Source: Melastoma dodecandrum (lineage: Eukaryota > Streptophyta > Magnoliopsida > Myrtales > Melastomataceae). Taken from it: a stretch of 64,000 bases of DNA. The translations under genes and the position numbers were made by a program. Position 1 is the first letter of the stretch. Every line of letters starts with the position of its first letter. Location of the stretch: positions 810,001-874,000 of the forward strand of contig JARUPY010000164.1 of assembly GCA_029817715.1 (NCBI GenBank). The letters are read 5' to 3'. The notes under the pieces are model-generated. The model saw nothing but the letters and a program-made list of their open reading frames with translations. It ran no database searches and was not told where the DNA came from. Of this stretch, positions 13,488 through 46,775 are shown piece after piece.

Positions 13488-14211
13488 TAAAAAGGTCATG
13501 TTATAAGTGATATAGTCAAATAAAAGGTTTCAACTATCAAGAAACATTCAACCCTATTGTTAAGCATACTACAGTTAAAGTATTTTTTTGTCATTGGATG
13601 ATATACATGGATGGTACATTCATCAACTTTATGTGAACAATGCCTTTCTAAATGGAGATTTGGATGAAGAAGTCTATATGCATCTTCCTCAAGGATTTGA
13701 TGTTTAGGTGGAGAGTGCACATAAGCGAGTTTGTCAAATAAATAAGTCTCTGTGTAGTCAAGGAGGAGAATAGGCCATGGAACATCAAGCTCATTGGCTG
13801 CCTTATAGCTCTGGGATTTATTTAGTCAGAAGCAAACTATTCCTTATTTACATGAAAGTCAAATGATGCTTTTGTAGCTATACTAGTATATGTCGACGAT
13901 ATGACAATAGTTAGCGACAATCTTGATGATTTTAGAAGTTGATGCATTGTGTGTTTAAGCTTAAAGATCTAATGCAAGCGAAACATTTTTCGAGATATGA
14001 AATAGCTCGATCTAAGGATAGAATACTGGTGTCCCAAAAGAAACACGCCTTGGAATTGCTTGAGGATGTAGGTCCGTTGGCAACTAAACCTACAAATATA
14101 CCTTGGATGCTAAATCACAAGCTAGTGCAGATTGCTAAAGACTTATTTGTCAAATCCTCTAGTTTATAAGTAGCTAGTGAGGTGGCTGATTTACTTAATG
14201 AATACAGGGCC
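13488..14211 (+). pseudogene. copia reverse transcriptase, left part of a split gene
   Basis: FNYQETFNPIVKHTTVK is at about 13527-13580, then VNNAFLNGDLDEEVYMHLPQ near 13632-13690. The catalytic YVDD box is at about 13888-13900, and FSRYEIARSKDRILVSQKK at 13990-14045. Frames change several times. The gene breaks off at 14206-14211, in the IYLMNTGP segment, where the Tat element at 14212 begins. Its continuation (GPDINFVVQVLSQFMS) is on the minus strand at 45115-45230, 31 kb away, which is key evidence for an inversion. The GGGCC at 14207-14211 is one half of the Tat target duplication. Confidence 0.85.
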
Positions 14212-15333
14212 TGTTCGCGTCGAAAACGGATCACGTCGGAAATATTTGGCAATGATACTCACAGGGTTTGTAGATGTGGTCGCCAATAAGTAAATGAAAT
14301 ATATTGAATTAAATATGCGAAGTATTACAATTAAAATAAGGTGCTTACAGCCATAAAAATAAAGCAAGGACGATGGTGCAACAACGTAAACTTGCTTCTG
14401 AGCGCTGCAGACAAAGAGGCGAGGTCGTAGACTTACCACTGGGCGCTAAAGTCTTGCGAATCCACACGATGGGGACGTCGTAGACTTGGCGCTGGGCGCT
14501 CTGAACTTGGGAGTCTGGGCGATGACGTCGTAGACTCGATAACAGAGTGCTGTAGACTTGTGAGTCTGGGCGATGACGTCGTAGACTTGATAACACAGTA
14601 CTGTAGACTTGCGACTCTGAATGGCGAAGCTTGGTTGCTGGGCTTGGTGGACGGTGTGTGGTTGAATGTAGAGGCGGATGTAGATACCAAGGCTACGGTT
14701 GCTCACCCTGGTGGTGGAGTCGAAGGCGGAACTGCGTGCCAGGACTACGATGGCTCGTCCTGGCGGTGGAATGCTGGCGGGGAGTTGCTACCAGGGCTAC
14801 GGTTGCTCACTCTGATGGTGGAAGTGAAGGCGCAGTTTGGCTGTCAGAGTTACGGTTGCTCACTCTAACGGTGGAAGTGAAGACCAATGAAACTTTAAGA
14901 GTTTCGCCCAGGTCGGGGAATCCTAACAACTAAGGGGTGACAAGCAAATAAAGCTTCTGTTGGCTGATTTGATCGTGTTTTTTCCAAGGAAGATCTCCTC
15001 CCTTTTATACCCGGTCTGTTACGACCTCTGAAGTTCCTCTAATCTAAACCACCCCGGTGGATCTCGGAGTCAACAAACTGTCCTCTAAGAAGTGCCACTC
15101 GTGCGGACGTGGGTTGTAGACTCCACTGACTTCGGAGATAATCCATCCTTTGAGACGTGTGACCTGCGCAGACGTGGGTCGTAGACTCCCACTGCTCTCG
15201 GGGTCACTAATTAGTCTTGTGCAGATTAGGGCTTTAGGCCTGGTGTGAGCGCTGTGTCCTGTCTCACGCGGGCGCCGCGTCCTATTGTGGGCTTTGTCAG
15301 ATAGTAGGCCTAAGATAGTCCATCATGTCAACA
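14212..15333 (-). repeat. 3' LTR of the second Tat element
   Basis: It runs from TGTTCGCGTC to CATGTCAACA (1122 bp), with TG...CA ends. A TATA box, GGTATAAAAGG on the minus strand, lies at about 15000-15012. The LTR contains two internal tandem arrays. One is a 52-bp array with GAGTCTGGGCGATGACGTCG around 14510 and 14562. The other is a 51-53-bp array with TACGGTTGCTCAC-type units starting near 14691, 14742, 14795 and 14848. Confidence 0.9.
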
Positions 15334-15349
15334 TATGCCCCCCTATTTT
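15334..15349 (-). other. polypurine tract of the Tat element
   Basis: The minus strand reads AAAATAGGGGGGCATA directly before the 3' LTR start TGTTGACATG. Confidence 0.75.
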
Positions 15350-15390
15350 GCTGAGGGGACTTCTGTCGCCTAAGCATTTCTGACATTTGA

Positions 15391-16882: not shown

Positions 16883-17149
16883 CCCATCGGCCAGCCGACC
16901 TCCCAGCCAGCCGTCAAGCGGGACACCTGGGGAAGGAACTCCGAGCTGCCTGCCTGGGTGACTTTGATCACCTGATGGCGAATGCGGGCCGTGTTGGGAG
17001 GCTCCTTCACATTGAGACAATCTCTGAATACCAGTTTAAGGACTCTTCAAAGTTGCATCAAGGAAATTGAGGACTCCCCAGCCACCACTATCGAGATGTA
17101 GGCAGCTTGCGAGGAATGGGCATCGTCTTGTAGACAAGGTTGGCTGACA

Positions 17150-17900
17150 CGAAGCGACTTGTGTCTTGGGCAACACTGCGTCATGGCCGTAGACTAGCAC
17201 GAATGGAGTTTCCGCTGTGCTTTCGCGCTTAGTGACTCTTAGAGCCCATAGTGTATCATTCAGTACTTCATGCCATTTCTTTGGATTAAGCCCGACCATC
17301 TTTGGGATTTTATTTTTAATTAATTTATTGGAGGCTTCGGCCTGTCCATTCGCTTGAGGATAATATGGAGTGGAATTCAGGATTGAGAAGCCAAACTCTT
17401 TGGCAAACTCCCTCACTCTTGTATTGTTAAAAACCCTCATGTTGTCTACAACAATGTTCTGGGGAATGCCGAATCGATAAATGATACAAGTCCGCAGAAA
17501 ACTAATGAATTCATTGTGGTCAATTTTCTTGTAGACTTGAGCTTCTACCCACTTGGTAAAGTAATCTGTTGCTACTAAGATGAACGCATCCCCTCGACTA
17601 GAGTGAGGGTGAATTTCCCCTATCACATCTAGAGCCGAGGTCCTGAAAGGCCAAGGTTTGATCACGGGGGTAAGGTCAGCTGCTGGGGCACGAGTTATTG
17701 GGCCATGTCGTCGGCATTCTTGACATTCGTTGGCCATTTTAATGCAATTTTTCATCATTGACGGCCAGTAAAAACCTTGTCTACGAATAATCCAACACAT
17801 TTTTATCCCTGTCTGGTGTGACCCACAGAGTCCCTCATGGGTCTCCATCATTATTGGAGTAGCCTCATCTAAGTCTACGCATCTTAAAAGGACTCCGCTT
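17150..17900 (-). pseudogene. Tat integrase, C-terminus deleted
   Basis: An open frame starts with the zinc-binding part ETHEGLCGSHQTG and CQECRRHGPI. The core follows: the first Asp in SALDVIGEIHPHSS, TKWVEAQVYKK, the second Asp in QNIVVDNMRVF, and the YYPQANGQAEASNK segment with the catalytic Glu. The core is intact to LVYGHDAVLP near 17170. Beyond that point the frame runs into sequence antisense to the neighbouring gene, so the C-terminal domain is missing and a deletion of pol together with the end of the antisense gene is inferred near 17150. The core is unusually well preserved compared with the integrase at 138-1260. Confidence 0.9.
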
Positions 17901-18600: not shown

Positions 18601-18613
18601 GTGCTTGTCCCCC

Positions 18614-19206
18614 CGAAAACGGATCACACCAGAAATATTTGGCAATGATACTCACAGGGTTTGTAGATGTGGTCGCCAGTACGTAAATGAAATAGATTGA
18701 ATTAAATATGCGAAGTCTTACAATTAAAATAAGGTGCTTATAGCCATTTGCTTCCGCGCGCTGCACACTAAGAGGCGAGGTCGTAGACTTGCAAATGGAC
18801 GATGTAGTCTTGCAAATCCGGACGATGGGGACGTCGTAGACTTGGCGCTGGGCGCTGTGAAGTTGGGAGTCTGGGCGATGAGGTCGTAGACTTTATAACA
18901 GAGTGCTGCAGACTTGGGAGTCTGGGCGATGACGTCGTAGACTTGATAACAGAGTGCTGTAGACTTGCGACTCTGAATGGCGAACCTTGGTTGCTGGGCT
19001 TGGTGGACGGTGTGTGGTCGAATGTAGAGGAGGATGTGGATACCTAGCCTATGGTAACTCACCCTGGTGGCGGAGTCGAAGGCAGAATTGCATGCCGGGA
19101 TTACGGTGGCTCGTCCTGGCGGTGGAATGCTGGCGGGGAATTGTTACCAGGACTACGGTTGCTCACTCTGATGGTGGAAGTGAAGGCAGAGTTTGGCTGT
19201 CGAAGC
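18614..19206 (-). repeat. 5' LTR of the second Tat element, 3' part only
   Basis: It aligns with 14222-14846 of the 3' LTR, including the GTAGACTT-rich tandem units. It ends at GTTTGGCTGTC (19199), directly beside an Athila LTR at 19208. The 3' LTR continues GGCTGTCAGAG at this place; the sequence from CAGAG on is found, inverted, at 45704 and below. Confidence 0.88.
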
Positions 19207-19207
19207 T

Positions 19208-20659
19208 TGATAACTCTATGAATATAGAGTTATTTGGGACTCTTAACGGGACTTTACATGGCTAGCTAGATGAGTTTATGTTAGAGTTTTACAAGTTTTT
19301 ATCGTATTTTTACTTCATTTTAGTTTTAAGTTACTTTTGTTATTTTATTAAATCTTGAGCTAATTTTGAAAGTAACTGGAACCTAGTTGATGCATCTTAA
19401 ATTTGTTTTGATTTGATGTTGGTAAATGAAGAGAATCATAAGTTGGGCAAGTGAAAATTGGACGAAGATTGATAAAGTGCTGAAAAGTTACAGAGAGAAG
19501 AAGGACGCGTCCATCAATCTCAAGGACGCGACCGTGCGAAATCAGTAGACTACAGAGAGCAGAAGGACGCGTCCCTCAATCTCAAGGACGCGACCTTCGA
19601 CGATCTGTACAAGATCTTGTCAAATCAATTGATTCCTTCATTATTACGATTTGAAGAGAGATGAGGCATCAATTAGTTACTATTTTTATTATTCTTAGGT
19701 TATTTTGGTATTTAGTTACTTTCTTAGGCTTCTTAGAATCTTTGAGAATATTAGGAAATCTTTTAAGGGAACAATATATTCTCTAGGATAGCCTAAGGAG
19801 GAAATAGAGTTTTTCATTGGGTTTTAGTTTTTTTAGACTTTTGCTCTGAAGAAAAAGGAGAGATGCCGACTAGGGTTCAAGAGAAGATCCGGACGAGGCG
19901 ACTACCGACCAGATCGGGAGATCGGGAGGGCGTTCCTTACCTATTTTCCTTGATTTTTATGTTGATGTTATTTTCTTCTGAACTTTGGATGTTTTCTTAT
20001 TTTAGTATGAACTAGTTTTCTTATATGGGGTGCTAAATTTATTTTTTTCAAGGTGATTTTGAACGTGATTTATTTTATTTGAAAGTCTGATGTTCTTTGA
20101 TGTGCTTGCGTGTTTATGTTTCTGAAATACGATTGGCGTCGGTTTCTGAAATAACTCGGATTACCTTAGCATCGGGAGGTGTAAGATTAATTTGAAAGGA
20201 AAATCAAAGAACATGTTAATAGAAACCGGATAAAGGGATATCACAGTTGATATTAATTGGATTGACTATTGGGAGTAGATTAATAGAAACCGTAGATAGG
20301 GATATCACGGTTAATGTTAATTGAATCGAATGCTAGGAGTTAATTGAATATAGATCGTAGGGATACGTCTAATAATACGAGAGCATGATTTAAATCCTCG
20401 AACAGCTTTATCTAAACGTTCGATTGATCCACGACAAGTTAAGTAAATCTAGTTGCCCTAGGCTTTCTTATCGATATTTTTTTGTGATCCTTGCTTATTT
20501 TATTTTAGTAATTTTCTTCTAATCCTTCATTTATTCTGTTAGTCTAGATAATATTTAGCGGTTTAATTGGTATTCAGGAACAATTAGTCCTCGTGGGAAC
20601 GATATCTTACGTGCTATAATCGATTCGTGCATATACTTACGCACAACACATTTTTAGCA
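19208..20659 (+). repeat. Athila LTR
   Basis: It starts TGATAACTCTATG and ends TTTTTAGCA (or CACAACACA at 20650), 11 bp before the primer site, about 1452 bp. AGGACGCGTCC with a CTCAAGGACGCGACC unit occurs twice near 19503-19600. It is closely similar to 45708-46770 on the other strand. It is only distantly similar to the LTR at 25660, so these two are probably not a pair. Confidence 0.8.
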
Positions 20660-20670
20660 GGAAAAGTTTT

Positions 20671-20688
20671 TGGCGCCGTTGCCGGGGA
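20671..20688 (+). other. Athila primer-binding site
   Basis: TGGCGCCGTTGCCGGGGA, the usual primer site of Athila elements, complementary to the 3' end of a tRNA-Asp. Confidence 0.9.
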
Positions 20689-20806
20689 CTAATTGTTATT
20701 TCTTGATATCAATAGCAGACTCATTAATATTAGACTAGATTTTTTTTCTTTTTTTTCGTTTCATTTTTCTTTCTTTGATTTTTTTTTTTAAGATTACTCT
20801 CGGTGG

Positions 20807-22467
20807 ATGCGACGTAGCCGAAGTGCTAATTCTTTGGAGTATAACCCTGAGATCGAGCAGACGTGTCGTGCTCTAAGGAAAGAAGCAAAGCTTAGAAAAC
20901 AACAAGAAAAGATTGCTCTTGAAAATAGAGACATGGAGAATCATAAGGCACTTGGAGACAATGCAATTCCATCCGTGGGTGAGTCCAGACAGGTATTCGA
21001 AGACCCGCAATAGCAGCAAATAATTTTGAGATCAAGCCGGCCATCATCCAATTGGTGCAGAATCAATGTCAATTTGGTGGAAATGTCAGTGATGAGCCGA
21101 ATGCCCATATTGCGAGTTTTCTCGAGATCTGTGATACGTTTAAGAGCAATGGTGTGTCCGATGACGCGATCCGACTGAGATTGTTCCCATTTAGCTTATG
21201 GGACAAAGCGAAGGCGTGGTTATATTCTCTCACGCCAGGTTCAATTACGACATGGGATAACTTAGCTAGAGAGTTCCTCACCAAGTTCTTTCCACCCATG
21301 AAGACGGTGAAGTTGAGGCGAGATATTACTACTTTTATGCAACTCGATGGGGAGACCTTGTACGAGGCATGGGAGCGATATAAGGAATCACTCCGGAAGT
21401 GTCCACATCATGGCCTTCCGAAGTGGCTGATCGTGCAGACATTTTATAACGGATTGTTACCTACAGTTCGGACATCGATTGACGCAGCAGCTGGTGGAAC
21501 ATTAATGGCAAAACCAACCGATGAGGCGTACACACTGCTGGAAAATATGGCGATCAACACCTACCAATGGGGCAATGAACGAGGACAGATGAGAAAACAA
21601 GGCATGACGAATGTGGATTTGCTGACAAATATAAACGCCAAGATTGATGCTCTCACAAAGATCATGCAAGGGCAACTGAAGATGAATGTTATGAATTGCG
21701 AGGTCTGCGGAGGAGAACACAACTCTGGTGAATGTGTGGAGACGGCAAATTATATGAGTAACTTCAACCGATGGGCAGGTAATCCATTTTCTAATACTTA
21801 CAATGCAGGTTGGAGAAACCATCCCAATTTTTCTTGGAGAGAGACACAACAACATGGACAGCCTGCTGGACCAAGCTCAAACATACACATGAAGCAAAAT
21901 TTTGAGCCTCCGGGGTTTCAACAACAGCCACAACAAGTTGCAAAGGAAAAGGTAAGCATTGATGGCATGTTACAATTGATTTCTTTATAAAACTCTTCTA
22001 TAAAAAGTCTTGAAGCATCGATGAGGACCATGGAGAACCAGATGGGTCAACTAGCATATGCGATCGCCTCGAGGCCATCGGGAAACATACCGAGTGACAC
22101 CGAGATCAATCCAAGGTCAAAGGAACAATGTAAGGCAATGAACCTCAGAACCGGAAAGGTAATCAACGAATATATTGGTTCCTCAAGCCAGGAAAACAAG
22201 GCGTCGTTCGAGGAGGAACTTGGACAAAAGGGCATCAAGCAATCTGTAGATGAAAGAAGTGCATCTGAGCAAACCCTTCCTGAGATTTCTTCTTCAGAAA
22301 ATCAACCCAACAAGGTAATAGCTGATCCCAATGAAGGACAAGAAGAAAAGAGAAGTCCTGAACTCACTAAGGAGTGCTTCATCGTATTTCTGCAGTGCAG
22401 TTTCACCAAATTTTCGTACAACTACCCAAAGTTTCTATACTTTTGTTCTTCGACGGTGCATCTATAG
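20807..22467 (+). pseudogene. Athila gag, frameshifted and truncated
   Basis: The N-terminus begins MRRSRSANSLEYNPEIEQ at 20807 and loses frame before 21000. The main gag frame runs from about 21020 to 21990 with ANNFEIKPAIIQLVQNQCQF, the core WDKAKAWLYSLTPGSITTWD, FFPPMKTVKLRRDI and a zinc-binding CEVCGGEHNSGEC (Cx2Cx3Hx4C) near 21698-21736. A TAA at 21988-21990 interrupts it; the same frame continues with MENQMGQLAYAIASRPSGNI to about 22370. Protease and pol do not follow; the element is cut at about 22470. The decay is light: one shift and one stop. Confidence 0.9.
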
Positions 22468-22869
22468 GGTAATGAATGATGTGTCCTCCAGATCGAAGGA
22501 CGGGACTATGACGATGCACCACATCCATATAGCAGCGGAGGATGTGTCTTTCCCCGAATAAAAAAAAAGTAAATTTAAGTATTATGGGGGTATGCGTGAT
22601 ACGAATAACCCTAATTTGTCCCCCCGAATCTTCATCGAGAATGATGGAATGGGACGACCCCGACCTCAAGCACTCCATCACTTACCAAAAGGCGAATACC
22701 CAGTCAAAATCGGGATCATAAGAAGCTCACCCATCTCAGCGGGTGTTCTCCTTGACATCCGTGGATAGTTGGGAGCAATTGTCCCTCGGCTTCCTACTCT
22801 CCCTTGTCATTCTCAGGTTAGATCTCCTTGCTTGTTTTCATTAGCCTCTACTCGATTTGGTGAAATAGA
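22468..22869. other. junction region, nothing recognised
   Basis: Sequence between the Athila gag and the env-like ORF of a different Athila copy. It holds a short open stretch near 22480-22560 and no domain I recognise. Confidence 0.4.
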
Positions 22870-24640
22870 TAAATTGGATCGAAGATAAATTGGCCAAGAA
22901 AGGGTGTAGATTCTAAATGGGCTTCTGAGGTTGCATTAGGCCGATTTACTTAGGCTGTGGAGAAATGGAAAGTGTTTGTTGTTGAGTGTAGATTCTTTTT
23001 ACCGTTTAAGAAGTCATTTATTCATTAGGCTATACGTCTTGTAGCCACTAAGGGTTGGAACAATTTTTTGGCACCTCGTGAACCTGCGGTTCATGTCGTG
23101 GTAAGAGAATTTTTTACTAATAGTCCCAATCAGAAGAATTATTTGGTGTAGGTGAGGGGAAAATATATTTCGTTTGATGGCACAACTCTAAATGAATTAA
23201 ACTTACCCATCCCCAAAGTCAATGAATATTTGGAAATGGTGACCGGTTAATTTACACGAACACAAGCTGAAGTTGTGAGTCAAGTATTGACGATGATGGA
23301 AGTATCTTGGATAATGGCTCAAAATGAATTCATGGAAATTCCACGAAGTGCCCTAATTGAAATGGCAAAGGTTTGTTTAATTTTGTGGCGTATACAATGT
23401 TACCAGTCATTTGTGCAAAAGAGAGCGTGTGGTTTTGATTTATGCCTTCTTAAGGAGAAAAGGTCTCAATGTGGGTAACCTGATCCACAAGGCCATTGTT
23501 CAACCAGCCTACAACACAATGGGGATTTTAGTATCCATGCTTTATCACCATTCTCTATCGCCAAGTTGGGGGTCCCATAACTAATCACAAAGAGATTGTC
23601 CAGTACAGCACACTAATGACAAAAGAGTTTGTTAAGCCAAGCAGGCTAGAGCATCAAGTTCTAAAGGAGGGGTAGCTACTGTCACAAGGGTAAAACGTTT
23701 CGAACGCATTATGAAGCACTTTCTTTTATTTTTACACTATTTCGAACGCCCCTATGCGGCGTCGCACTCAATCCTAAGCACGACTAGCCTTAAACCTACA
23801 CGCAATGGAAGCCTTTGTATTCGTATCTAGAGTTCCTTTTGAGAAAACCCAACCCTTTATTAGTACAAGGAATGTACAACTCTCAAATCCTAAGCCTCGT
23901 CACTTTACAAGCCTTCTTATAGGGACCGTGGTTATTCACCAAGCAATACAATCAATCCAAGGGGGTATGATAAGTAACCACCCTCTAATATCCTTTAGGG
24001 TCGCACTCTTACCAATCTATGCACCCCTTATAAGTGTTGTGGCTGTCCAAGGGGAACCCACCCAAGGAACATACCTTTTCACAAACACCCCCTAGTAGGT
24101 CATATCCTTACATATGCACCTCCTCACAAAGTGACACGTCCATTACTCATGTCTCTTCACGAACCTTGCTCGTTAGACCGCCCACGAGCATCCCTTATGC
24201 CTCCATGCCTGAGTATTCTGGTCACGTTGCGCCTCCTGCCAAGCTTCACTGTTCGAGTACCAACTCGAACCTCACTTGATCTGTCAAGTGTCAACGAACA
24301 CACCTACGCTCGTTGTTGTCCATGCGCTCCGACCCATGGAAACTGCCCAAGCAGCCTCGCTCAAGCTTCCGTAAACGACGGGCACCGACCCTCGTCTTGT
24401 CCCCATGATAGCTACCATTGAAGAACACATGCATCTGCGGGAAATAAATGACAAAATCCGATCATCATATGTAGAGCATTATTTCAAGATGGTGGAAGAG
24501 ATGTTTCGCTTCCATGGTGCAACCTCTGGAATGGAAATGACGGGACATCCTAGTATCCTATCATTCAAGACTATCAGAAAGAAGAGCAGTCTTCTTCAGA
24601 CAATAATGTAGATCTACAAAGCTCAAATATAGAAAATGCA
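22870..24640 (+). pseudogene. Athila-associated ORF (putative plant transposon protein domain), interrupted
   Basis: With several stops (TAG near 23017 and 23150), the frame reads KGWNNFLAPREPAVHVVVREF, then VRGKYISFDGTTLNEL and AQNEFMEIPRSALIEMAKV to about 23480. This fits the putative plant transposon protein domain found downstream of pol in Athila and SIRE elements. The frame is open again at 23600-23672, where a 729-bp insertion (23680-24408) interrupts it, and it resumes after 24415 with EEHMHLREINDKIRSS. The C-terminal part is probably the coiled region. Function is unknown; it is often called env-like without direct evidence. Confidence 0.7.
23680..24408. mobile_element. 729-bp insertion with 7-bp flanking duplication
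   Basis: The insert begins TGTCACAAGGG and ends CCCCATGA. TAGCTAC flanks it at 23673-23679 and 24409-24415. The reading frame of the env-like ORF is continuous across the flanks when the insert is ignored. There are no clear terminal inverted repeats. It may be a solo LTR of an unknown family with a longer than usual duplication. Confidence 0.65.
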
Positions 24641-25648
24641 TATGAAACTAAGGACTAGATCTATGTAGTGATAGGTGATTGTGTCGGTCGCTTTGAGTTT
24701 GGATATTCCCTAGAAGTTGTCTTTTAATTTTGTTAGGTCATGTTTAGGTTGAGTCTAAGTGTGTCAAATTCCTTGGTAAAACTTGATAATATCATTGATG
24801 AGCTGATCATTATTCGATGATGAGTAATTATACATGTGCTCACGACGTATGGAAGAGTAAAAATGGAGCCTAACTGGTGATTAGACTTAACTTTTTTAAA
24901 AGGGCAATGATATTTCGGTATGGACTATTATTGATTGAAAACAATTCTAAAAATATAATAACGCATGGTAGTTGGTGTTGAGTGGGACTGGTTAATCATT
25001 GATAATCAAGTCTTGGGTAGAAAAATATAACTAAAGAAAAATAGTAAAAAAAATAGTTATCAATGCTTTGAGTACCAATGTTTAGGCTCTTGAAAGAAAA
25101 TAAAATAAGTGTGACTGAAATGCGATTGGCTCCTAAATATGTAATTGTGGTGTTAGTCTTTTTCGGTGTACGTAAGCATAAGATCTGAGGGGTGCTTCAT
25201 TTTCCTAATGCTTCGGTCCAACTAGACCGTGAGCTATTGATCAAATACTGGTTACATGTGTACACTATAATGTGATGATACATTTAATGTCGCGTAGTTG
25301 AAATGAAAGTTTGTGAATGAAAACAAGTGTTAAAAAACCTGTGGATGAGTGGATGGTTGGTGTTTGGCTAGTTTCCTACTAAGTACCGATCTAGTACATA
25401 TGATTGGAAGTCTTTAATTGTTGATTTCACTGCATGACATTTCGAGCTGATCATTGTGAACAATTAATAAAGTTTACCAAATTGAATAGTTTTTCTTGAC
25501 AAATGACTTGACCATGGGGAGTGACTAATTGCATTGATGAGAATAGATAGCATGTCATTCATATTTAATAAAATCAAGTATTGTAAAGGTGTGTCCTATG
25601 TTTTCTTTTTTTTTTCTTTTCATTTGCTCAAAGAATAGCGAATTATAG
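24641..25648 (+). other. Athila 3' untranslated region
   Basis: AT-rich with no gene. Around 25100-25340 it is similar to 48145-48360, which lies downstream of another Athila env-like ORF (shared elements include the GTGGTGT-GAGTCTT and CAACTAGACC-type segments and a GATGATACATTTA block). That shared order supports its being the region before the 3' LTR. A polypurine tract, GGTCCGGGGGTG, ends it at 25659. Confidence 0.65.
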
Positions 25649-25659
25649 GTCCGGGGGTG

Positions 25660-34214: not shown

Positions 34215-36309
34215 CTGCAGAGTTTTTAGAAAAAGAGGTGTTTGCAAGTGCTCTAGAGAGAGAGTCAGCTATTATGTTGTGGTCGGACTTAATGTATTCG
34301 ACCTCGTATTTATAATAGCTTAATTGTTCCTGCAACCTTAAGAGTCTAGTTTGCCTAGCTTCCTTAAGGTTCAGACTCATAAACCTTTTTACATAGGTCG
34401 AGTCAGAGCGCACTAAAAATTCTTTCGGTGCCAAAAAGATGTAAAAGGCCTTTATTCCTTTTTTTAAGGCCAATACCTCCTTTTCATGTATCGGCTATCT
34501 TAGTTCATACCCCTTGAAACTTCCCGACCAGTATTTGCACACCGGTTCTGGTTTTCGTCCTCTAATTTTGAGGACTGCTCCCCAAAATTCTTCAGAAGCA
34601 TCAACTTCCAAGACTAACTCATCCTTGTCAGAAGATAGAGCAAGTTGTGGGAAATTTTTCACCTTTGCTTTAATCCTTCTAATGGATTGAGTGTCTTCAT
34701 CTTCCCATATCCAAGTATTTGTAGAAGAGGTTTTCTTCGAAATCATACTTAAGTCTCTGGAAAGATCTTTCACAAACTTTCTCGCATAGTTAGCGCATCC
34801 ACAAAATCTCTGGACTTGCTTTCTATCCTCAAGTCTGTCAGGGAAATTAACTATTTTCTCAGCAATATGATTTTGCAGTTTAATTTTTCCCTGCTCAATC
34901 TCCATGCCTAGAAAATTAACTGATTCCCTAAACCATTCTATCTTTTTCTCTGATAGAATCATGCCCTCCTGTCGGAAGACATCAGTCACCTTATCAAGGT
35001 GTCTCATGTGGTCGTCCTCAGTCTGACTGTAGACTAACACATCGTCAATATAGACCGCACAAAATTTTCGGACCTGCTTGAAAGCATTATCCATTTTGCG
35101 CTGAAATACGCCTGGAGCATTTTTCAGACCGAACGGCATAACCAGCCATTCAAACATTCCTTGCGGAGCATTGAAGGCAGTTAGAGGAACCGACTCTTCC
35201 TCCATCTTGACTTGCCAGTATCCACTTTTCAAGTCAAATTTAGAGAAGAACTTTGGTTGGCTCAGACTTACCCTATCAATTAAATCTCCCGCAGTGGGAA
35301 TCTTATAGCCATCATCTTTTGTAGCTTTGTTAAGCTGACGATAATCTATAACCATTCGTGCTTTCCCTCGCACCTGCTCGGCATGATTAATAACCATAAA
35401 GGCAGGACTAGAATGTGGACTGTAACTGTCCCTAATCAAGCCTTTTCCAAGCAACTCAGGAATTTGTTTGTCAAACTCCTCAACCATCTCAGCCGTATAC
35501 GTTATGTTTCTGGCTCTTATAATTGTTCCGGGATCTTTCAACTCTAATCTAGCTTTTAGGCCATTTCGAGTCCATAACTTTAGTGGATCTTTACTAAAAT
35601 TATCGGCTAGTTTTATTAGGAACTTATCCCATTTCGTTCCTATTAACTTAACAGCCATGCACACTTCTTGTTTTGGAAACAAGTCGTCATACCAGTTAGA
35701 ACTCCTGGTATTCGTTGGAGAAAACAGAGTTTGTTCCCATGACTCGTTCTCATCCAACCGTATATCACCACGTTGAGCTCGCACTCTAAAAGCTCTTTCA
35801 CATGGGATATCACCACAGTATTCCGTCCGTTTTACCGGATAAAAGCCAAATTTTAACCGCAGTCTAGGCTCTTGTAGAATACTTATCTTTATACCACCGA
35901 TGGAAACATCGTTTTCATTCTGCACAAAAGGAAGGTTTTCCTTCTGACCCTTCAAAAAGGCGTTACCAATAATGATGTCGGCCTCTAGTAAAGGATGTGC
36001 AAGAATCTCTTTAATGATGAACTTTTGTCCACCAATAAAGACAGGCACATTGCTTGTCTTATGGCCTACCACTGTGGCCATACCATCGACGTTAACCATG
36101 TGGATGGGTTTCTGCAGTGGTTTCCACCACTCATCTGGTAGAGCATTGAGTCTTGCACATGTTATGCTACACCCAGTGTCTATCAAAGTATCTAGAGAAT
36201 ATTCATAGTATCCAGGAAATTTGAAAGTTAGAGCTACATATGTGCTCAAGTCTTCCTTCCTAACACTAAACCCAATATTATCAAGTACTATCTGGGATGG
36301 TTCTATCAT
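34141..36309 (-). pseudogene. pararetrovirus protease, reverse transcriptase and RNase H
   Basis: Retropepsin comes first, with LDTLIDTGCSITCARL near 36190-36140. Reverse transcriptase follows, with VIDYRQLNKATKDDGYKIP near 35350-35300, the palm motif FDLKSGYWQVKM near 35220, and the catalytic AVYIDDVLVYSQ at about 35060-35025. The RNase H part continues after a TAG at 34495-34497: FLVRSDSTYVKRFM and DHNIIADSLSRAL keep the expected Asp residues. The natural end is TAA at 34141. No integrase follows, as expected for Caulimoviridae. Apart from the single internal TAG at 34495 and the upstream TAG at 36364, the frame is open for over 2 kb, so the integration is not ancient or decay has been slow. 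Confidence 0.92.
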
Positions 36310-36363
36310 CCTCCAGATATCGTCTATTGATATAGACCTTTGCTCGGCTATTTGCTCAATAAC

Positions 36364-36804
36364 CTAACAAACTTCAGGAATCTTAGATAAAGAGTTTTCC
36401 ATACTGGTAACTCTTAACATCCGTATAGACTCCTCTCTCGTTTGGTCTACAGGGTCTTCATAGACTGGTAATGATACCTGTCTATACCCTACGATTCTAC
36501 CCGTATGTTGCGACGGGGCTCTCGAATCAACAGACCTTCGAGACATTTCTTCTATTAGTGGTGGAGCAGATGCTTCTGCTGGTCGGGACACAATTATGAC
36601 CTCTCCCACATCACTAGCTCTAGAAGAAACTTCAGAGAGCGTATTTGCTCTTGGCTCTCTTAGGAGTGGCATCCTCATAGGCAGATGCCTATCAGCTCTA
36701 AAACTGTCTCTAGATGGTTCACCCAACATTAAAGTAATTTCGTTACCTCTTTGTCGGATATTGGCCGCACTAATCGGCCTAGAGCTACTACTAGGTTCAG
36801 TCAT
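36364..36804 (-). pseudogene. pararetrovirus polyprotein linker
   Basis: A 146-codon segment between the movement-protein-like domain and protease. It is in the same frame as both, bounded by TAG at 36808 and TAG at 36364. It is Ser/Arg/Pro-rich without a recognised domain. Both TAGs sit in the context TAGGTTAT. Confidence 0.6.
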
Positions 36805-36807
36805 AAC

Positions 36808-38169
36808 CTAGTTTCTTGGCCAGGTTAACTCCAATGGGTTTACCTCCCGCCTGTGAAACAGTTGGTAGTTATTATGACCTTCTTCGAACAACTCAGTAAG
36901 TCTTGAGATGTTCCTCACACCAGGACTAGTGGTATTTACCAATCGGTAAATTACTCTAGTGTGATACGCCAAAAACTTGGCCTGGGAATTCATTCTATCC
37001 ATATTCATTGATTTGATTCTCAAGGTCAATGAATTTCCCAAACAGCGATCGTTTAGGGCCATCATGAAATTTGTATGGACCTGGAACCATACAGGGCCGT
37101 GTGCTAGGTTGGCCTGTATTCCTGATATCAGCTGATCTCTAAACTCTCGCCATCGTTTATCGATCACAGCTGCTACCACAGGACTATCCGCCGGAAGATG
37201 GAATAGCGGGATAAGTCCTACTTGGATCAACCCAATGTGTATATAATTATATACACCTCTCGCACGTTGCATGGTTTCCCTAATGCGTTGTACGTTGAGT
37301 AATGGGATATCCAACGTCTCAAGCTCCGTATTTGTAACTTGAGCCGCTGCCTCTGTTTGTGAAATGTCTATTATCGATCTAAAATTGAATCTCGATATGT
37401 TATAGACCTCCCTCATATTAACATTAGGCAACCTCCATTCCAGAACTGACTGGGATGGATCTTCATACTGGTGGGTTTCCTCCAGTACCTGATTAGATGC
37501 TTCCAACGGAACCATCTCGTCACCATCTCCGTTTTGCTCTGCTCTCATCATAAACAGATGCATTTTCCAGAGATCAGAGTCATCGTCTGAGTCTGTATCA
37601 TAATCTGACACTATCTCATAAATCGACTCTACTTCCGAGTCTAAGTCGAAAATCTCCTGCTCATCGATTGGTTCATAAGCAAAGACTTCTTCCTCATGAC
37701 TCCTGTCATCTAGGAAGACCATCTGGAGTCTTTCTCTCCTTTGGTTCTTCTTCGCACAACTATCCGCTTTGTGGTCTTTTGAACCACAAAACCAGCAGCA
37801 ATTGCAACTGCTCAAAGGTTTCCCTTTAGGATATTTAGGCTCTCTGCCATGCTTTCTTTTGAAGGCATCGATCCTATCTTTATCCTTCAGGTTATCTCTT
37901 CTCCTCACAAACCTCCTTGGTTTGTAAGCAGGACCTCCTTTTTGCTTACGCTGGAAGTCCTTCTTGGGCCAAACTTTCTTTTTGTTGTACCCAACAAACT
38001 TCCTCTTCTGAGGAAAGTTTCTTCTCTTCAAAGAGTCTCCTGGAGTACTGCGAGTATCGCATCCATACCTCTTAGGCACATACTCAATTTGAGAACAACA
38101 GCTCTTGTTCAGGTAAGGTAGCTTCTTAGCCGCCTCTTTAACCTGGAGCTCAGTACATGCTTTACGCAT
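36808..38169 (-). pseudogene. pararetrovirus coat-protein zinc knuckle plus movement-protein-like domain
   Basis: This 453-codon frame starts with a basic region (KRRNFPQKRKFVGYNKKKV) and then a CCHC knuckle CWFCGSKDHKADSC at about 37760-37800, as in Caulimoviridae coat proteins. An acidic stretch (DYDTDSDDDSD) follows. The second half, about 37430-36810, contains YNYIHIGLIQVGLIPLFHLP and FRDQLISGIQANLAHGPVWF, which resemble the 30K-type movement protein of the family. The order coat protein then movement protein is unusual, because most described genera have the movement protein first. The frame ends at a TAG (36808-36810) and continues in the same frame two codons later. Confidence 0.7.
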
Positions 38170-38386
38170 TGCGTACTTTACCGCCTGAATCTTACCTCCG
38201 AGTCCAGAGACAATCTTTTCCTCACTCAGAAGTAATTCATAGGCCTTTTGCGCAACTTCCGGCCAAGGTTCTAGAAGTTTTGCAAAAAAAGGTTCCTAAT
38301 ATGAACTGTTGTGATACTACATCCAGATTGTAGTAATACTTCTGGAATTCACACATGTAGCTATCAAACCAGCACATATCATAGAT

Positions 38387-39325
38387 CTATAGTTTAACTA
38401 GAGCTGTCAACGACTGCACTTTTTCCACAGTTTCAGTGGATAATGAAAAACCACAGAACTCACGTTTTAGGGCATCAGCTATTATTGCTAATACTCCATC
38501 AACCGTCAGCGCCTGATCTATCTTTTCCTTAATGTCTGTGTGCGCCACTAAGGTTTTCCAATACTTCTGCGTTGTACCCATAAGGGCTGCCACACATAAT
38601 TCGTAGACTGCTCCAGGAGGTACTCCTCCTACAGATGCCGTCATCCGAATAAGTGATAACCACTCATCTATCTTTTCAGATACGTGCTTCTCACAGTCAA
38701 TGTCCAGAAAAGCACCAGGGGTAATTATCGGCTTTAAAATATTATCCCTTGGGACAAACTCTTGTTTAGTCCGATGAGGATAATCAGGCCTGTAAATTTC
38801 CCTCTTCGCAGTTACCAGTTCGTTAAACGTTCTGTTGTCTAAATGAACTGGAGTATCTTCTACCAGACCTAAGGCTTTCCTTAAGTCTTTTGCCAACTCC
38901 CCACTTTGGGAATTCAAGTTTGCACTTCGCCTTTGTGAGTCTAAAATGTAAGGAGCCACTAACTCCTTATACATCTCATCCACACTCTTGCCTTGATTCT
39001 GTTTGGAATTTCTTCCTCCCAGATTCAATCTTTCGACTGGTTTTCCCGTAGTACTTTTCAGTCCAGAGGTCGCCTCGGCTTCAGGCCTTTTTAAACCTCT
39101 TTCTCTTTCCAGAGCATTTAACATTGTGTTTACAATGGAGCCTACTTCCTTTGCCATTTGGTTTCGGCTTTCTAGACTTTCATTGCTCCCCTGAATGGTT
39201 TGCTGAGTTAAAATATCATTTATACTCTTGCTAACTCCAAAAGGAGACAATCTAGCTTCTGGAACGAACTCCAAACGCGATGCAGTCCCAGAAGGATTTC
39301 CTGAGGATTTTCCTTCTCCAGCCAT
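38387..39325 (-). pseudogene. pararetrovirus coat-protein N-terminal part
   Basis: A 312-codon frame begins with ATG at 39325 (MAGEGKSSGNPSGTAS) after a short leader. It ends at a TAG at 38387-38389, after which the same frame stays open for about 100 bp before a frameshift near an A7 run at 38284-38290. The start was chosen because it is the first ATG after a stop-rich leader. The segment PGAVYELCVAALMGTTQKYW and the hydrophobic pattern fit capsid sequence, and the zinc knuckle in the next frame supports this. Coat protein is the best reading but rests on position and on the knuckle rather than on a diagnostic motif. Confidence 0.6.
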
Positions 39326-39514: not shown

Positions 39515-41101
39515 TGTTGGTATTATTTTGATGATGAGCCATATAAAAGTATGACCTTCTGCGAGACAAAAGAATGGAATACATTGCAGAAGCCATTACC
39601 TTCTGTTAGGAAATATTTTTATTAAATATTTTTATTCAATCACGAAAATTAAAAGAAATATTCTTTGGAATTATTCTTAGTGATTAAGATATTCAATCTG
39701 ATCAATTTCGTTAATAAATAATTTTAGGAATTAATTTATTTCCTAATTATCTTTTTTTAAACCTTCTATAAGGTTATCCCTTATTCATTAAATATTATTT
39801 ATTGGATAATTATACACCTCATATGTTCACATTCACTGAATCATGTCATGGATTGGACAAAATGTAATTTGGAAATAAATTTTAAATTATTTCCAAATAC
39901 AAAAGGTTGCTGACGTGTCCAGCCGGAATCTTCTGTATATACATTATTCAAAGAAACTTCATTAATTCATATTTTAATTGGTTTAATTTGAATCCCAACT
40001 AATATTGGTTCGGAGTGACATATTTGGAAATAATTTACTAATTATTTATTTGTTGTCTTTTATGTGAAGATGCTAGTTTTGTCAAGTTTCACCTTCTATG
40101 TTAAGCCTAGAATTTTTGTATGCAATATAGAAGTCAGTCCCTCTCACTGTAACAACGAAAAACGAAAAAGAGAGTATAGAATACATATAAATACTAAGAG
40201 AGTCTTACGAGTTCGATTTTTAGTATTCTTAAATGTTGTTAGCCACAAACGGAAGGAACTGTTACTATACAAGGTTGTAGCGTTAGTGAACCTTTTAGGA
40301 GAGTGACATGGGGAACACGAGGGACTCTTGATTGGAGGCTATAGGAAACATTGGTGCAGGCGTGCGGCTGGAGGCTGACGTGGCCAACGTGTAGTGGGCC
40401 GGAGAGAAGAGCAAATACCCTAGGAGCACAAAAGGTGAGCGACTGGCCAGCTTTTGTTACATTATGTATGTGCAGGAACCCAGGACAGAGACTGATGTAA
40501 GTCTGCATGGGGCTTGCTGTGGGCGGCTTGTTGCGTGCTTGCATAGGGCTTGCTATGTGCTTGCGTGGGGTGTGCCGTGTAGTCGCTATCTCGAGGAGGT
40601 CGCGCAGATCGTATGGAGCCGCCAGAGGGAAAATCCATTATTGGATAGGGATTGTTGTCTGTTTGCGTAGGGTTTGCCACGTGCTCGCATGGGGCTGCCA
40701 CGAAGTCGTTGTCCCGAGGGGATTGTGCAACGAAAGCCTCAGTGAGGAACTGTGCAGGCGAGGACACCACCTGAGGAAAACGTCCAAACATTTTGTTAGC
40801 CACGTTTACACATGCAACGAGCTAATCGTGCATCACATTCTGTAATCGCTACCACGTTTTGTTTTAGTGATAACCATTCAAATCTTGGGCGAGAGTTGAC
40901 GTAGGCAAAGATTGCCAAACCAATTTAAATATCCTTGTGTCATACGAATAATTTGGGATATGTTCCGCAGCTTCTGTTTCAAAGAAGCTGTTTGCAAGGT
41001 TCTATTTTATAGATGATTTCTTCAGTTGCGGGATTTGTCGAAAATGAATTAAAAATCCTTAATTAGACTTTAACACTAATTCACCCCCTCCTAGTGTAAC
41101 A
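39515..41101 (+). repeat. SIRE-type copia solo LTR with intact target duplication
   Basis: The LTR runs TGTTGGTATTATTTTGATG...CCTAGTGTAACA, 1587 bp, flanked by TTTTG at 39510-39514 and 41102-41106. It has no internal region. The ends match the LTRs at 49362-51269 and 52591-54564. It sits in the leader side of the pararetrovirus, so it inserted after the virus integrated and later lost its interior by LTR recombination. Confidence 0.92.
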
Positions 41102-41106
41102 TTTTG

Positions 41107-42919
41107 CTACTGCACGAACCTATCACGACCATAACTGACAATACAGATCAAGTTTCGACTACTTCCACATGGTTTATTACACCAACAAGGCATATGCAAT
41201 ATTACACGGTGTTGAATGTGGCAACTAATCGTTGAACTACATTAAACATTCGTATGTTGTTTATATATTATCTATAAAACGGTTCTGTATTGATAAATTA
41301 ATGATAAGTAGATTATTGTCCGGGTCTAATCCTCTAAAATAATGTGTTGGCTTTCCGGCCTTGGAATAGAAAAAATTATAAAGGGGACTTCGACCCCTTG
41401 AACGGGTCAACCGTCTCGATTTAGAAGCTCAATGAGGACTTATGGAGCAAGTGGTTAAGTAAAGGAAAATTCTATATTGATGCCGGCAACGAGGGGATTG
41501 TCGTATACGTCCGCTCAGGGGGAACTCACGGGATGAAGAGTTAATCCACTCAAATAAGACTTTGGCCGGTGCTTTTCGTTTTTTTTTTTATTTCGTGAGC
41601 ATGGGGGCCATGACTGAATTTTCTTACCTAATCAATTAATATTTGACAGTATCGAACACGTTTTTGCAGTCGTCGTCGTTGTCCGGTTGCTTTTACTTGA
41701 CCAAGAGCCATGAAAAAGCACGTCAACAAGGGATTGGTTGGAATGGTGATGGGTCGTCCGCAACATGTTGGCTTCTTGACAACGGCGAACCCCCCTCTAC
41801 TGAACGTGGAACAAGTGTCATGTTGGCTAGGGAATTCTTTAATTCGACAACCTCTCTCTCACTGAGTTGGTTATTTTAAGGTTAAAACAAAAGCTCCCAT
41901 GGTAAATCGTCATTTTGGGCCTCGAAGGCTGGAGCGCCGATGGTGGGCTTGCATCGAGGAGAGTCATTATCATCTCTGCAATAGATGGAGTTTTGAATAT
42001 GAGTACTACATCGAAGAATGTAGTCGAAGCACTCAAGATCGAAACTATGATTAGAGCTTTTCGAAGAGAAATGTCCTGGCTGTATCAAAGAAGATGAAGA
42101 TTGTTCTAGTAGAGTCATTGAAGATATAATAATCTATAATTAGTTTTAGTAGAATAAACACGTATTTAATGTGTTCAGGACGACGGTTACTTGGGTTATC
42201 GCCTATAAATAAGTCATTCTCAGTCAATTGTACATACAACACAATCACTCATTGATCCCAAAGGGCTGCTTGATTGTTGTCTGCTTGTAAAGTGTTCATG
42301 TGAAGTTTCTGTAATGGCTGTAAGTGTTCAACTTTTGTGTTCTCGGTTTCTTTGTCTTTAATTTGTTCTTTTACGTTATTGGTGACCGCATTTCTTCAAC
42401 GCTTTAGTCCCTGATATATTGCGACGTTCACGCAAATTGCGTTTAAGGAGAAAAGGTAAAATTAATCACATTCACAACGATCACCATAGACTTTCCAAGA
42501 AGCGCGCTTGGGTCAACTAATATTGTCCGAAGTTTCATAAAATAGTTGTTCTTAAAAATAAACGACTCGTTTTTTTTAAACAATTATTTTTTATGCTTAA
42601 TTTAACATTGAAACCAAACGTACAAACAAGAATATTAACATTAAATCGCTTGAGAAATTGGAAGGGCCACTCCAATGAATTATTTGTCTAAAGCAATGAC
42701 TATTCCGAAGTCATTATATCTAAACTAAAAATTACTAAAAGATTCAAACGCATGAATTGGCCGAATGAAAGTAATGAAAGACTTTTGGGGAAGACCAAGT
42801 CAATTCAGTCAATCTAAGAAAGGAAGAAAGACAAATAAAAGTCATCGACTTGGAAATTGGGTGCGATGCTTCCCCCAATTATTTCTTAAAATAATAAAAG
42901 AATTTTTATCGGCTAGGCT
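41107..42919. other. intergenic, no gene recognised
   Basis: 41107-41200 may be displaced pararetrovirus leader: its GATCAAGTTTCGACTACTTCC resembles 30897-30920. A promoter-like GCCTATAAATAAG at about 42199 and GGCTGTAAGTGT at 42317 suggest a decayed LTR. Open stretches at 41643-41879 and 41915-42097 carry no known domain. Confidence 0.4.
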
Positions 42920-42927: not shown

Positions 42928-42998
42928 GCCACTTTACCCTCCCCGTGATCAATTCATAAACAAACTAGGCTCAATTTCATAAACAACCACCAAGTGAT

Positions 42999-44604
42999 AT
43001 GGCAGCCAATTCCCCAGACTCCAAGAATATGGTCGCCACTGTGAAAGCCGTTGCCTCTGCTGCTGCCTCAATCACCGCCTCTGTAATGCTCGCCCGTTCC
43101 ATGGCCCAGAACATCCTCCCCCCAGGTTTCGAGCACTTCATCTTCTCCGGGATCAGGAACTTCTTCTCCCGCCTCTCCAACGAGCTCACCTTGGTGATTG
43201 AGGAGTACGATGGCCTCGTCTGCAACGAGCTTTTCGAGTCCGCCCAGATTTACCTCGCCTCGAGGGACTCCTCGTCCTGTTCCCCCACCCAGAGGCGCCT
43301 TCGCGTGACCAAGCCTGGGAAGGAGAAGAACATTATCGTTACCATGGACAACAGCGCAGACATACCAGATGAGTACCGGGGGATCAAGCTGAAATGGTAC
43401 CTGGGAACTAGGAGGATTGAGTCAGGGTATCAGAGGCATGGTGATATGAGCTCGAGCCTCCACTACGAGATCCGCTTCTTCGAGCTCAGCTTCAACAAGA
43501 AGGACAAGCTCGCCGTTCTTGACGGGTACCTTCCCTACATAATAAACGAAGCGAGGTCCAAGAAACAGGAGAAGAAGACGCTCAAACTGTTTACCCCAAA
43601 TTTTGACCGTGTCTACCCCTCACGGTTGTCGGACGCCTGGACACCCGTCAACCTTGACCATCCGGCCACATTTGAAACCTTGGCGATGGAAGCTCAACTC
43701 AAGGACCAAATTTTGGATGATCTGAGGAGGTTTGTGAGGAGGAAGGACTACTACAGGAGGGTTGGCAAGGCGTGGAAAAGAGGATACCTGTTATACGGAC
43801 CGCCCGGGACTGGGAAATCGAGCTTAGTGGCCGCCATGGCAAATTACTTGAACTTCGATGTGTATGACCTCGAGTTGACGACAGTGAGGTCAAATTCCGA
43901 CCTCAGGAGGTTACTGGTCGGGACGGCAAACCGTTCGATATTGGTGGTGGAGGACATCGACTGTACCATTGAGTTCAAGAATCGGTTGAGCAAGAAGGTT
44001 CAAGTCGACCCATCAGGATTCGTCCAAGAGAAACAACAGGTCAACATTTTTGCAAATTCCTAATTCAACGATGAATTCGTATGCGACATTTATTTTCTAG
44101 TACTTTGCATCCTGATGATAAAAAAATTATTTATCAAAATAGGTGACCTTATCTGGGTTCCTAAACTTCATCGACGGGATATGGTCGAGCTGTGGGGATG
44201 AACGGATCATAGTGTTCACAACCAACCACAAGGAAAAGCTGGACCCTGCGCTTTTGAGACCAGGGAGAATGGATGTACACGTCCACATGTCATATTGTAC
44301 GCCCTGTGGGTTCAGGCTTCTGGCTGCCAATTACTTGGGAATAGAACGACACAGTCTGTTTAAACGTATAGAGGAGGCGATTGTTGAGGCGAGGGTGACG
44401 CCAGCAGAGGTGGCGGAACAGCTGATTAAGCATGACGAGGCGGACGAGGCTCTGGAGTACATGATGGCGTTCCTTGGGATGAAGAAGAAAGAAAACGAAG
44501 AGAAGGAGCTGGCAGAAGCCAAAGAAGGAAATGAGAAGGTTGAAGTCATCGGGGATGAAAGGGGAGTCGATTCTGTGATTGACGAGGGTGAAGGCAAAAA
44601 CTGA
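42999..44604 (+). CDS. AAA-type ATPase, BCS1-like (HSR4/OM66 family)
   Basis: Two exons, 42999-44039 and 44143-44604, joined over a 103-bp GT-AG intron with phase 0 (GAG AAA CAA CAG, then GTG ACC), give 500 residues, the usual length of this plant family. A hydrophobic N-terminus at residues 12-38 fits a membrane anchor. The plant AAA-associated N domain follows (ARSMAQNILPPGFEHFIF to about 140). The AAA module has Walker A GPPGTGKSS at about residue 267, Walker B ILVVEDIDCT at about 314, and in exon 2 the NHKEKLDPALLRPGRMD box with the arginine finger. The C-terminus is Glu/Lys-rich. Relatives sit in the mitochondrial outer membrane or ER and respond to stress and pathogens. No lesion is visible. 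It lies inside the proposed inversion. Confidence 0.95.
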
Positions 44605-44689
44605 ATTGATTTAATTAATATCGTACTTGGGCTACAAATAATGGTCGGTTTGTGGGGGGGAGGGAAGAACGGGAGTACTACGTATCGCG
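44605..44689 (+). other. 3' flank of the AAA ATPase gene
   Basis: Short AT-rich 3' UTR-like sequence after the TGA. No clear polyadenylation signal can be singled out. Confidence 0.4.
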
Positions 44690-45114: not shown

Positions 45115-45230
45115 TTCTTCACATATCTTAATTAACACTGGATGCTGCTACAAGATGAGCCTTTGAAGGCTTACTCATAAACTGAGATAACACTTGCACA
45201 ACAAAGTTTATATCAGGCCCTGTTGACATG
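45115..45230 (-). pseudogene. copia reverse transcriptase, right part of a split gene
   Basis: The minus strand reads GPDINFVVQVLSQFMSKPSK and AHLVAASSV. This is the stretch that normally follows the LIYLxxTRP segment, where the RT at 13488-14211 breaks off. The shared GGCCC target duplication (45226-45230) confirms that both parts come from one copia element interrupted by the Tat element. Confidence 0.85.
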
Positions 45231-45704
45231 ATGGACTATCTTGGGCCCACTCTCTGACAAAACCCACAATAGGACGCTGCGCCCGCGTGAGACAAGATGC
45301 AGCGCTCACACCAGGCCTAAAATCTGCACACGACTAATTAGTGACCCCGGGAGCAGTGGGAGTCTACGGCCCACGTCTGCGTAGGTCACACGTCTCAAAG
45401 GATGGATTATCTCCGAAGTCAGTGGAGTCGACCACCCACGTCCGCATGAGTGGCACGTCTTAGAGGACAGTTTGTTGACTCCGAGAACCACGGGGGTGGT
45501 TTAGATTAGAGGATTTTCAGAGGTCGTAATAGACCAGGTATAAAAGGGAGGAGACCTTCCCTTGGAAAAAACACGATCAAATCAGCCAACAAAAGCTTTA
45601 TTTGCTCGTCACCTCTTAGTTGTTAGGATTTTCCGACCTGGGCGAAACTCTTAAAGTTTCATTGGTATTCACTACCACCGTCAGAGTGAGTAACCGTAGC
45701 TCTG
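45231..45704 (+). repeat. Tat 5' LTR, 5' part, displaced
   Basis: It starts TGTTGACATGATGGACTATC and ends CCGTAGCTCTG, matching the minus strand of 15333 down to about 14848. A TATA box, GGTATAAAAGGGA, is at about 45537-45549. No polypurine tract precedes it, so it is the outer end of a 5' LTR. Its broken end abuts the broken end of 18614-19206 to within one base when both are laid on the complete LTR at 14212-15333. Confidence 0.88.
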
Positions 45705-45707
45705 TCC

Positions 45708-46775
45708 TGCTAAAAATGTGTTGTGCGTAAGTTTACACACGAATCGATTATAGCACGTACGATATCGTTACCACGAGGACTAATTGTTCCGGAATACCAA
45801 TTAAACCACTAAATATTATCTAGACTAACAGAATAAATAACGGATTAAAAGAAAATTACTAAAATAAAATAAGCAAGGATTACGAGAAAATATCGATAAG
45901 AAAGCCTAGGGCAACTAGATTTACTTAACTTGTCGTGGATCAATCGAATGTTTAGATAAAGTTGTCCAATGATTTTAATCATGCTCTCCTATATATTAGA
46001 CGTATCCCTATGACCTATATTCAATTAACTCCTAGCATTCGATTCAATTAACATTAATCGTGATATTCCTATTTATGGTTTCCATTAATCTGCTCCCAAT
46101 AATCAATCCAATTAATATCAACTGTGATATCCCTATCTCCGATTTCTGTTAACCTGTTCTTTGATTTTCCTCTCGAATTAATCTTACACCTCCCGATGCT
46201 AAGGTAATCCGAGTTATTTCATAAACCGACACCTATCGTATTTCAGAAACGTAAACACGCAAGCATATCAAAGAACATCAGACTTTCAAATAAAATAAAT
46301 CACGTTCAAAATCACTTTGACAAGTCTAACAAATTTAGCACCCTAGATAAGAAAACTAGTTCAAAATCACCTGGTCGGTAGTCGCCTCGTCCGGATCTTC
46401 ACTTGAACCATAGTCGGCACCTCTCATTTTTCTTCAGAGCAAAAGTCTAAAAAAATTAAAACTCAATGAAAAACTCTATTTCCTCCTTAGGTTATCCTAG
46501 AGAATATTGTTCTCAAAGATCCTAAGAAGCCTAAGAAAGTAAATAAATACCAAAATAACCTAAGAATAATAAAAATAGTAACTAATTGATGCCTCCTCTC
46601 TCTTCAAATCGTAATAATGAAGGAATCAAGTGATTTGGAGAGATCTTGTACAGATCGTCGAAGGTTAGCGTCCTTGAGATTGTGGGACGCGTCCTTCTGC
46701 TCCCTGTAGTCTACGGATTCCGTACGGTCGTGTCCTTAAGATTGAAGGACGCGTCCTTCTGCTCTCTGTACTATC
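45708..46775 (-). repeat. Athila LTR, 5' truncated
   Basis: On the minus strand it ends TTTTTAGCA at 45708, matches the LTR at 19208-20659 closely, and is cut at about 46775, just upstream of the second AGGACGCGTCC unit. It is the inverted partner of the left LTR and the probable right breakpoint of the inversion. Confidence 0.85.

Follow-up and report, generated by a model that had tools for sequence, protein, structure and literature searches.

Inversions that arise when two chromosome breaks are repaired by non-homologous joining are a known kind of rearrangement. Inversions are also generated by ectopic recombination between transposable elements in opposite orientation, for example by Galileo in Drosophila (PMC2775673) or between inverted repeats (PMC8232201), and by transposases, as in the alternative transposition described for maize (PMC8225341). 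We present here an inversion in Melastoma dodecandrum that can be read from the retrotransposons at its ends. The genome searched was an assembly of 373 Mb in 607 contigs, and the window, i.e. the complete stretch of 64,000 nucleotides that was analysed and to which all coordinates refer, is located on one contig of 2.98 Mb. There is good support for a flip of the segment 22375–46770 (24,396 bp), with torn retrotransposons, nested as well as neighbouring, at both breaks. An inversion of about 25 kb had been proposed in a preliminary description of this DNA; it is borne out here with a measured length of 24.4 kb and by a separate test of the far breakpoint.

The locus resembles inversions made by non-homologous repair in its reciprocal joins, which are without long homology and have an overlap of 1–2 bp, and in the loss of DNA at one of the breaks. 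It differs from them in that both breaks are located in retrotransposons and that nested target duplications take the place of an outgroup genome. With ectopic recombination, as far as the two accounts cited describe it, it has in common that the inverted stretch has transposable elements at either end; however, the Athila LTRs were not opposed beforehand and the joins lie outside the sequence common to both partners. As in the maize case, a stretch bounded by transposable elements is inverted in a plant, whereas here no element end is found at either join. The kind of rearrangement is ordinary and the preservation of this example is good. A small inversion can be established here without an outgroup, using nested target duplications and repeat copies from a single genome.

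The copia fragment and the Tat element

A degenerate fragment of a copia reverse transcriptase (RT) is present in two parts on opposite strands. The frame of its 5´ part (13500–14206, plus strand), ...LVRWLIYLMNTG, stops in 14207–14211 and resumes as PDINFVVQVLSQFMSKPSKAHLVAA on the reverse complement of 45215–45115, the 3´ part of the fragment (45115–45215, minus strand); both parts were identified by eye, from the translation. The continuation on the opposite strand had been recognised before, with a position of 45230 that has to be corrected to 45220. Next to the two parts the target duplication of a Tat element is located, with GGGCC at 14207–14211 (plus strand) and the same five bases on the minus strand at 45216–45220 (GGCCC on the plus strand). 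This duplication is exact. It was already part of the preliminary description, in which the right-hand Tat coordinates were 10 too high (45231 instead of 45221).

The Tat element lies on the minus strand, since its integrase ORF (17036–17851, minus strand; PF00665, 3.8e-09, and PF17921, 7.8e-06) is encoded there and a PPT-like stretch, AAAATAGGGGGG, adjoins the whole 3´ LTR (14212–15333, minus strand, TG...CA). The two integrase domains on the minus strand and the PPT-like stretch beside a TG...CA LTR are the hallmarks seen of this putative Tat element (Ty3/gypsy). The names copia and Tat are presumed from the preliminary description and from general knowledge; the features examined here are domains and LTR ends.

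The 5´ LTR of Tat is divided into two halves with opposite orientation. The proximal half (about 18610–19202, minus strand) is not inverted, and its positions 18614–19201 match 14221–14845 with 86%. The distal half (45221–45702, plus strand) is inverted and matches the reverse complement of 14845–15333 with 92%. In the alignment the two halves meet at the target of the Athila insertion, as had been seen before with slightly different cut ends, which are 19202 and 45702 and not 19199 and 45704. At this target the Tat LTR reads GGCTGTCG followed by AAGCT on the left and GAGCT followed by ACGG on the right, and the intact partner reads GGCTGTCAGAGTTACGG. Two split sequences and two target duplications, one nested in the other, give the same orientation. 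This arrangement can hardly be due to chance, because the Tat and Athila LTR pieces align over 425–659 bp at 86–92% and the two target duplications are at the predicted places.

The Athila insertion and its LTRs

The element located at this target is presumably an Athila (Ty3/gypsy), a name based on the preliminary description and on the PBS; long LTRs and gag are found in the window and an integrase in the genomic copy L009. The 5´ LTR is whole (19208–20664, plus strand; ends set from other genomic copies) and is followed by the PBS and a gag region that is cut at 22374 (20665–22374, plus strand; PF03732 at 21052–21990; 92–95% to four full-length copies). Comparison with the copies revealed that the 3´ LTR (45703–46770, minus strand) is without about its first 283 bp. 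Thus, opposed Athila LTRs do stand at both cuts, as had been stated earlier, but their ends have to be set to 19208–20664 and 45703–46770, and the right LTR is truncated. This truncation, the stop of the Athila gag at 22374 and the visible target duplication of Athila had been overlooked.

The 5´ LTR has at least 41 matching stretches in its own genome, itself included. Other genomic copies place the true end of the LTR at ...AGCAGGACA, five bases beyond the end ...TTTTTAGCA assumed before. Ten solo LTRs have both flanks outside the element (among the copies listed; L026 and L031, with a common flank, are one site present twice), and all ten carry a 5-bp duplication, exact in nine and with one mismatch in one, flanking TGATAAC...AGCAGGACA, AGCAGAACA or AGCATAACA. 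In the four full-length pairs the duplication is exact in two, has one mismatch in one and is absent in one (C592). In the preliminary description the target duplication of the Athila in the window was thought not to be visible (AAGCT versus GGACA), but it appears once the LTR end is reset: AAGCT is located at 19203–19207 (plus strand) and GAGCT on the reverse complement of 45698–45702, the last 5 bp of the Tat distal half, and four of the five bases match.

The relationship of the two LTRs was analysed in a tree of 33 sequences, consisting of the two window LTRs and 31 other copies; L017 and L018 (window flanks, not LTRs) as well as C606, C606a and L005 (duplicates) were dropped beforehand. 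The two window LTRs are sisters in this tree (aLRT 95.9, UFBoot 99). They have eight rare states in common, which is the third highest number among 528 pairs. A gene-conversion switch point was sought in the same 33-sequence comparison: the common rare states are located only at LTR positions 596–1432, and none is present at positions 283–595, so that this part is uninformative. By plain identity the nearest relative of the right LTR is the left one. The left LTR is 92.7% identical to the right LTR and slightly more similar to copy L002 (93.2%), which is in line with the pair being old and its family expanding rapidly. Since four of five bases of the target duplication match and the LTRs are sisters in the tree, they are the 5´ and the 3´ LTR of one insertion. 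They were therefore direct repeats before the event and not the cause of the inversion.

Breakpoints and their former neighbours

Breakpoint 1 (22374|22375) is located in the Athila gag, where the homology to full copies ends at 22374–22376 in all four alignments (92–95% identity). Breakpoint 2 (46770|46771) lies inside the Athila 3´ LTR, which starts at its own LTR position 283. The ancestral ends have 2 bp (AG) in common at the first and 1 bp (A) at the second breakpoint, and by eye no homology longer than this overlap of 1–2 bp is present at the joins. Between the end of the kept gag and position 283 of the 3´ LTR about 5.06 kb of Athila are absent. In the C606 copy this gap corresponds to 5,061 bp, which were not found in the window or in 10 kb on each side of it, except for relatives with 70–71% (X, Y) and the left LTR.

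Both breaks have the same far partner, a 5´-cut Athila-like element termed Y. A part of its leader, displaced by the inversion, is found at 22375–22461 (minus strand), and the rest of the element, identified with Y-family relatives, at 46771 to about 48324 (plus strand), comprising the leader 46771–46958, remains of a PF20167-type ORF from 46959 onwards and the 3´ part. PF20167 was detected by Pfam in two Y relatives, L061 and L062; for the ORF of Y in the window itself (46881–47189) there was no Pfam match.

If 22375–46770 was flipped, the reverse complement of the sequence starting at 22375 should once have adjoined 46771. This prediction was tested with Y relatives, sought with 46700–48050 (44 rows), of which the upstream DNA of 25 was used. 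Outside the window's own contig the Y matches begin at 46959 or later, so that the leader stretch tested is not part of the matched sequence. The threshold was set at 99.5% of first-order Markov shuffles, and 200 random 87-mers from the window served as decoys. The reverse complement of 22375–22461 (87 bp) was above this threshold in 17 of the 25 upstream regions, the unreversed sequence in none (0/25). No decoy reached 17 regions (0/200, maximum 10). When 100 shuffles were scored in all regions, the best reached 48; 15 of the 17 positive regions exceed this value, and two are below it (L074 with 44, L077 with 42). Thus, when the segment is turned back, its far flanks are contiguous in 17 of 25 upstream regions, and eight are without a match (L056, L057, L059, L060, L065, L068, L075 and L076). 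A strict colinear order was found in only 13 of the 25 regions, since the leader is repetitive.

The joined flanks align across the join in all 17 positive regions with scores of 84–152, each higher than its own join in the wrong orientation (highest 98) and than either half. The automatic count gave 21 of 25 spanning alignments; four (L059, L065, L068, L075) were left out, having scores of 35–69, within 3 of or below those of the wrong-orientation joins. The Y copies have a common ancestry and some are possibly one site present twice, so that the 17 positives are not independent. On the distal side the loss amounts to a few bases at most, as judged against distant relatives; the alignments of Y relatives contain many gaps around the far join, so that such a small loss is possible. 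A reading frame runs across the restored far join; it was not used as evidence.

An older, 5´-truncated Athila-like element, X, is located next to the displaced leader (22461–27063, plus strand; LTR about 25658–27063; PF20167 in a relative, below the cut-off). Its relatives were tried as partners of both breaks and rejected. For the first break the piece scored 34–42, no better than shuffles (maximum 42); for the second break scores were 43–65, and one of eight loci, C493 reversed (65), exceeded the highest shuffle score of 58. Besides this score, it speaks against the breakpoint given here that a permissive BLAST search aligns 46670–46849, across the present second break, to the X-family locus L053 reversed at 63%. 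Beyond the break the aligned sequence is AT-rich, and this part, taken alone, does not surpass the shuffles in L053 (53 versus 58).

Order of events and other explanations

The following history is very likely, judged from one assembly. Tat would have inserted into the copia RT fragment, duplicating GGGCC, and Athila would then have inserted into the Tat 5´ LTR, duplicating A/GAGCT. The chromosome would next have broken in Athila, once or more, and in the Y leader some 24 kb away, with the loss of about 5.06 kb of Athila, and the segment between them would have been rejoined in reversed orientation by end joining with 1–2 bp of common sequence. Loss and inversion would have been one event, and the middle of the segment would have remained free of other rearrangements. 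The breaks were probably joined after the Athila insertion by end joining and, we infer, not by template-switching repair. To our knowledge, LTR retrotransposons are without a cut-and-paste transposase.

The divergence of the LTR pairs follows the order of nesting, with Tat (K80 0.0877, se 0.0095) older than Athila (K80 0.0765, se 0.0089), a difference that is not significant. Assuming 1.3e-8 substitutions per site per year, the Athila insertion dates back about 3 million years, and the inversion took place after it.

Loss and inversion are separable in principle: Athila might have been deleted first and a conservative inversion might have taken place at the scar later, or Athila might have been inserted already deleted. 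In such a history a second break would have had to fall only a few bp from the scar, and the scar is present in none of the four full Athila copies compared; we regard it as unlikely. An assembly error that flipped the piece is very unlikely. An assembler could go astray at the opposed Athila LTRs, and some loci are present twice in this assembly (L004/L005, L026/L031); however, a misjoin at the LTRs would place the breaks within the LTRs, and two reciprocal joins with 1–2 bp overlap on one 2.98 Mb contig would both need to be false. Moreover, the Athila LTRs differ by a K80 of 0.077, and a second haplotype of 41300–42900 was not seen, the own copy being the only one with more than 80% identity among the 41 matches listed.

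The mechanism favoured in the preliminary description was crossing-over between the two Athila LTRs, which are indeed opposed, stand near both ends and are 88–92% alike in two pieces. It is nevertheless highly improbable. On the side facing Tat, both LTRs adjoin the Tat target with a duplication matching in four of five bases, they are sisters, and as LTRs of one element they were once direct repeats, between which crossing-over leads to a deletion and not to an inversion. The exact ends are a misfit, too: the join at 22374|22375 is in gag, outside the left LTR, and the one at 46770|46771 cuts the right LTR at position 283, so that the two joins are not both inside recombining LTRs; nor are the LTRs derived from different insertions with exchanged flanks. 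The far partners are the Y leader and not an Athila LTR. The approach that reveals the inversion also locates both breaks with almost single-base precision and rejects a tempting story of LTR recombination; where LTRs in opposite orientation flank an inversion, they may be its victims and not its cause. That the short piece 45115–46770 alone was moved and reversed, and not the whole 24.4 kb, as might be suggested by the copia fragment, which by eye abuts DNA of a different origin at 45115, is scarcely credible, since the Y leader at 22375–22461, 24 kb away, would then not continue, in reversed form, the sequence from 46771 onwards.

The inversion of the whole segment, our preferred reading, has turned the two Athila LTRs into inverted repeats at a distance of about 25 kb, which could flip the inner part in the future. 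In relatives such as L062 the Y leader consists of units of roughly 40 bp (length estimated by eye) with the self-complementary word GTGCAGCTGCAC; the units in the window's own Y leader are decayed. There is a slim chance that such arrays form hairpins and break repeatedly, making Y-family leaders recurrent inversion breakpoints in this genome.

The cargo listed in the preliminary description is located within the inverted stretch. It comprises an At3g28540-type AAA ATPase gene (42999–44604, plus strand; PF14363, PF00004, PF25568), an endogenous pararetrovirus with movement protein, A3 protease and RT (32247–39325, minus strand; PF01107, PF02160, PF00078) and two solo-LTR-like copies.

The junction between X and Y

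Within the inverted segment, at 22431-22461, the leader of Y, the Athila-like element that the inversion split, adjoins element X, an older Athila-like element. When the segment is turned back, X and Y lie head to head, and each of them is a 5'-truncated Athila-like element. The X/Y junction at 22431-22461 is a second scar, which is older and lies adjacent to the inversion breakpoint. By eye, the Y leader (22375-22461 and 46771-46958, as well as the Y-family loci L058, L061 and L062 elsewhere in the assembly) appears to be made up of units of approximately 40 bp in a row, and in L062 these units contain the self-complementary word GTGCAGCTGCAC.

Interior of the Tat and Athila elements

The end of the Tat 5' LTR was seen by eye to adjoin later-pol-like sequence directly (at about 18606-18614), and the Tat interior seems to be without its front part. 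In the Athila gag, a match to the Rfam family snoR71 was found on the opposite strand (21310-21416, minus strand), with 57.6 bits against a cut-off of 40. Perhaps this family was seeded from retrotransposon copies, or the gag contains a snoRNA-like stretch.

Other repeats and duplicated loci

The endogenous pararetrovirus at 32247-39325 on the minus strand has a number of long open frames. On either side of it stand solo-LTR-like copies (27583-28862 and 39799-41103), which are inverted relative to each other and highly divergent (K80 about 0.5). The direct repeats at 49359-51282 and 52588-54577, about 1.9 kb each (K80 0.086), resemble the LTR pair of a short element. There are also matches to the neighbouring 10 kb: 59807-61102 matches the right-hand neighbour (L018) at 89% in inverted orientation, and 5518-6443 matches the left-hand one (L017) at 86%. 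Some loci (L004/L005 and L026/L031) are present twice with identical flanks, so in places the assembly carries a second haplotype or has contigs in duplicate.
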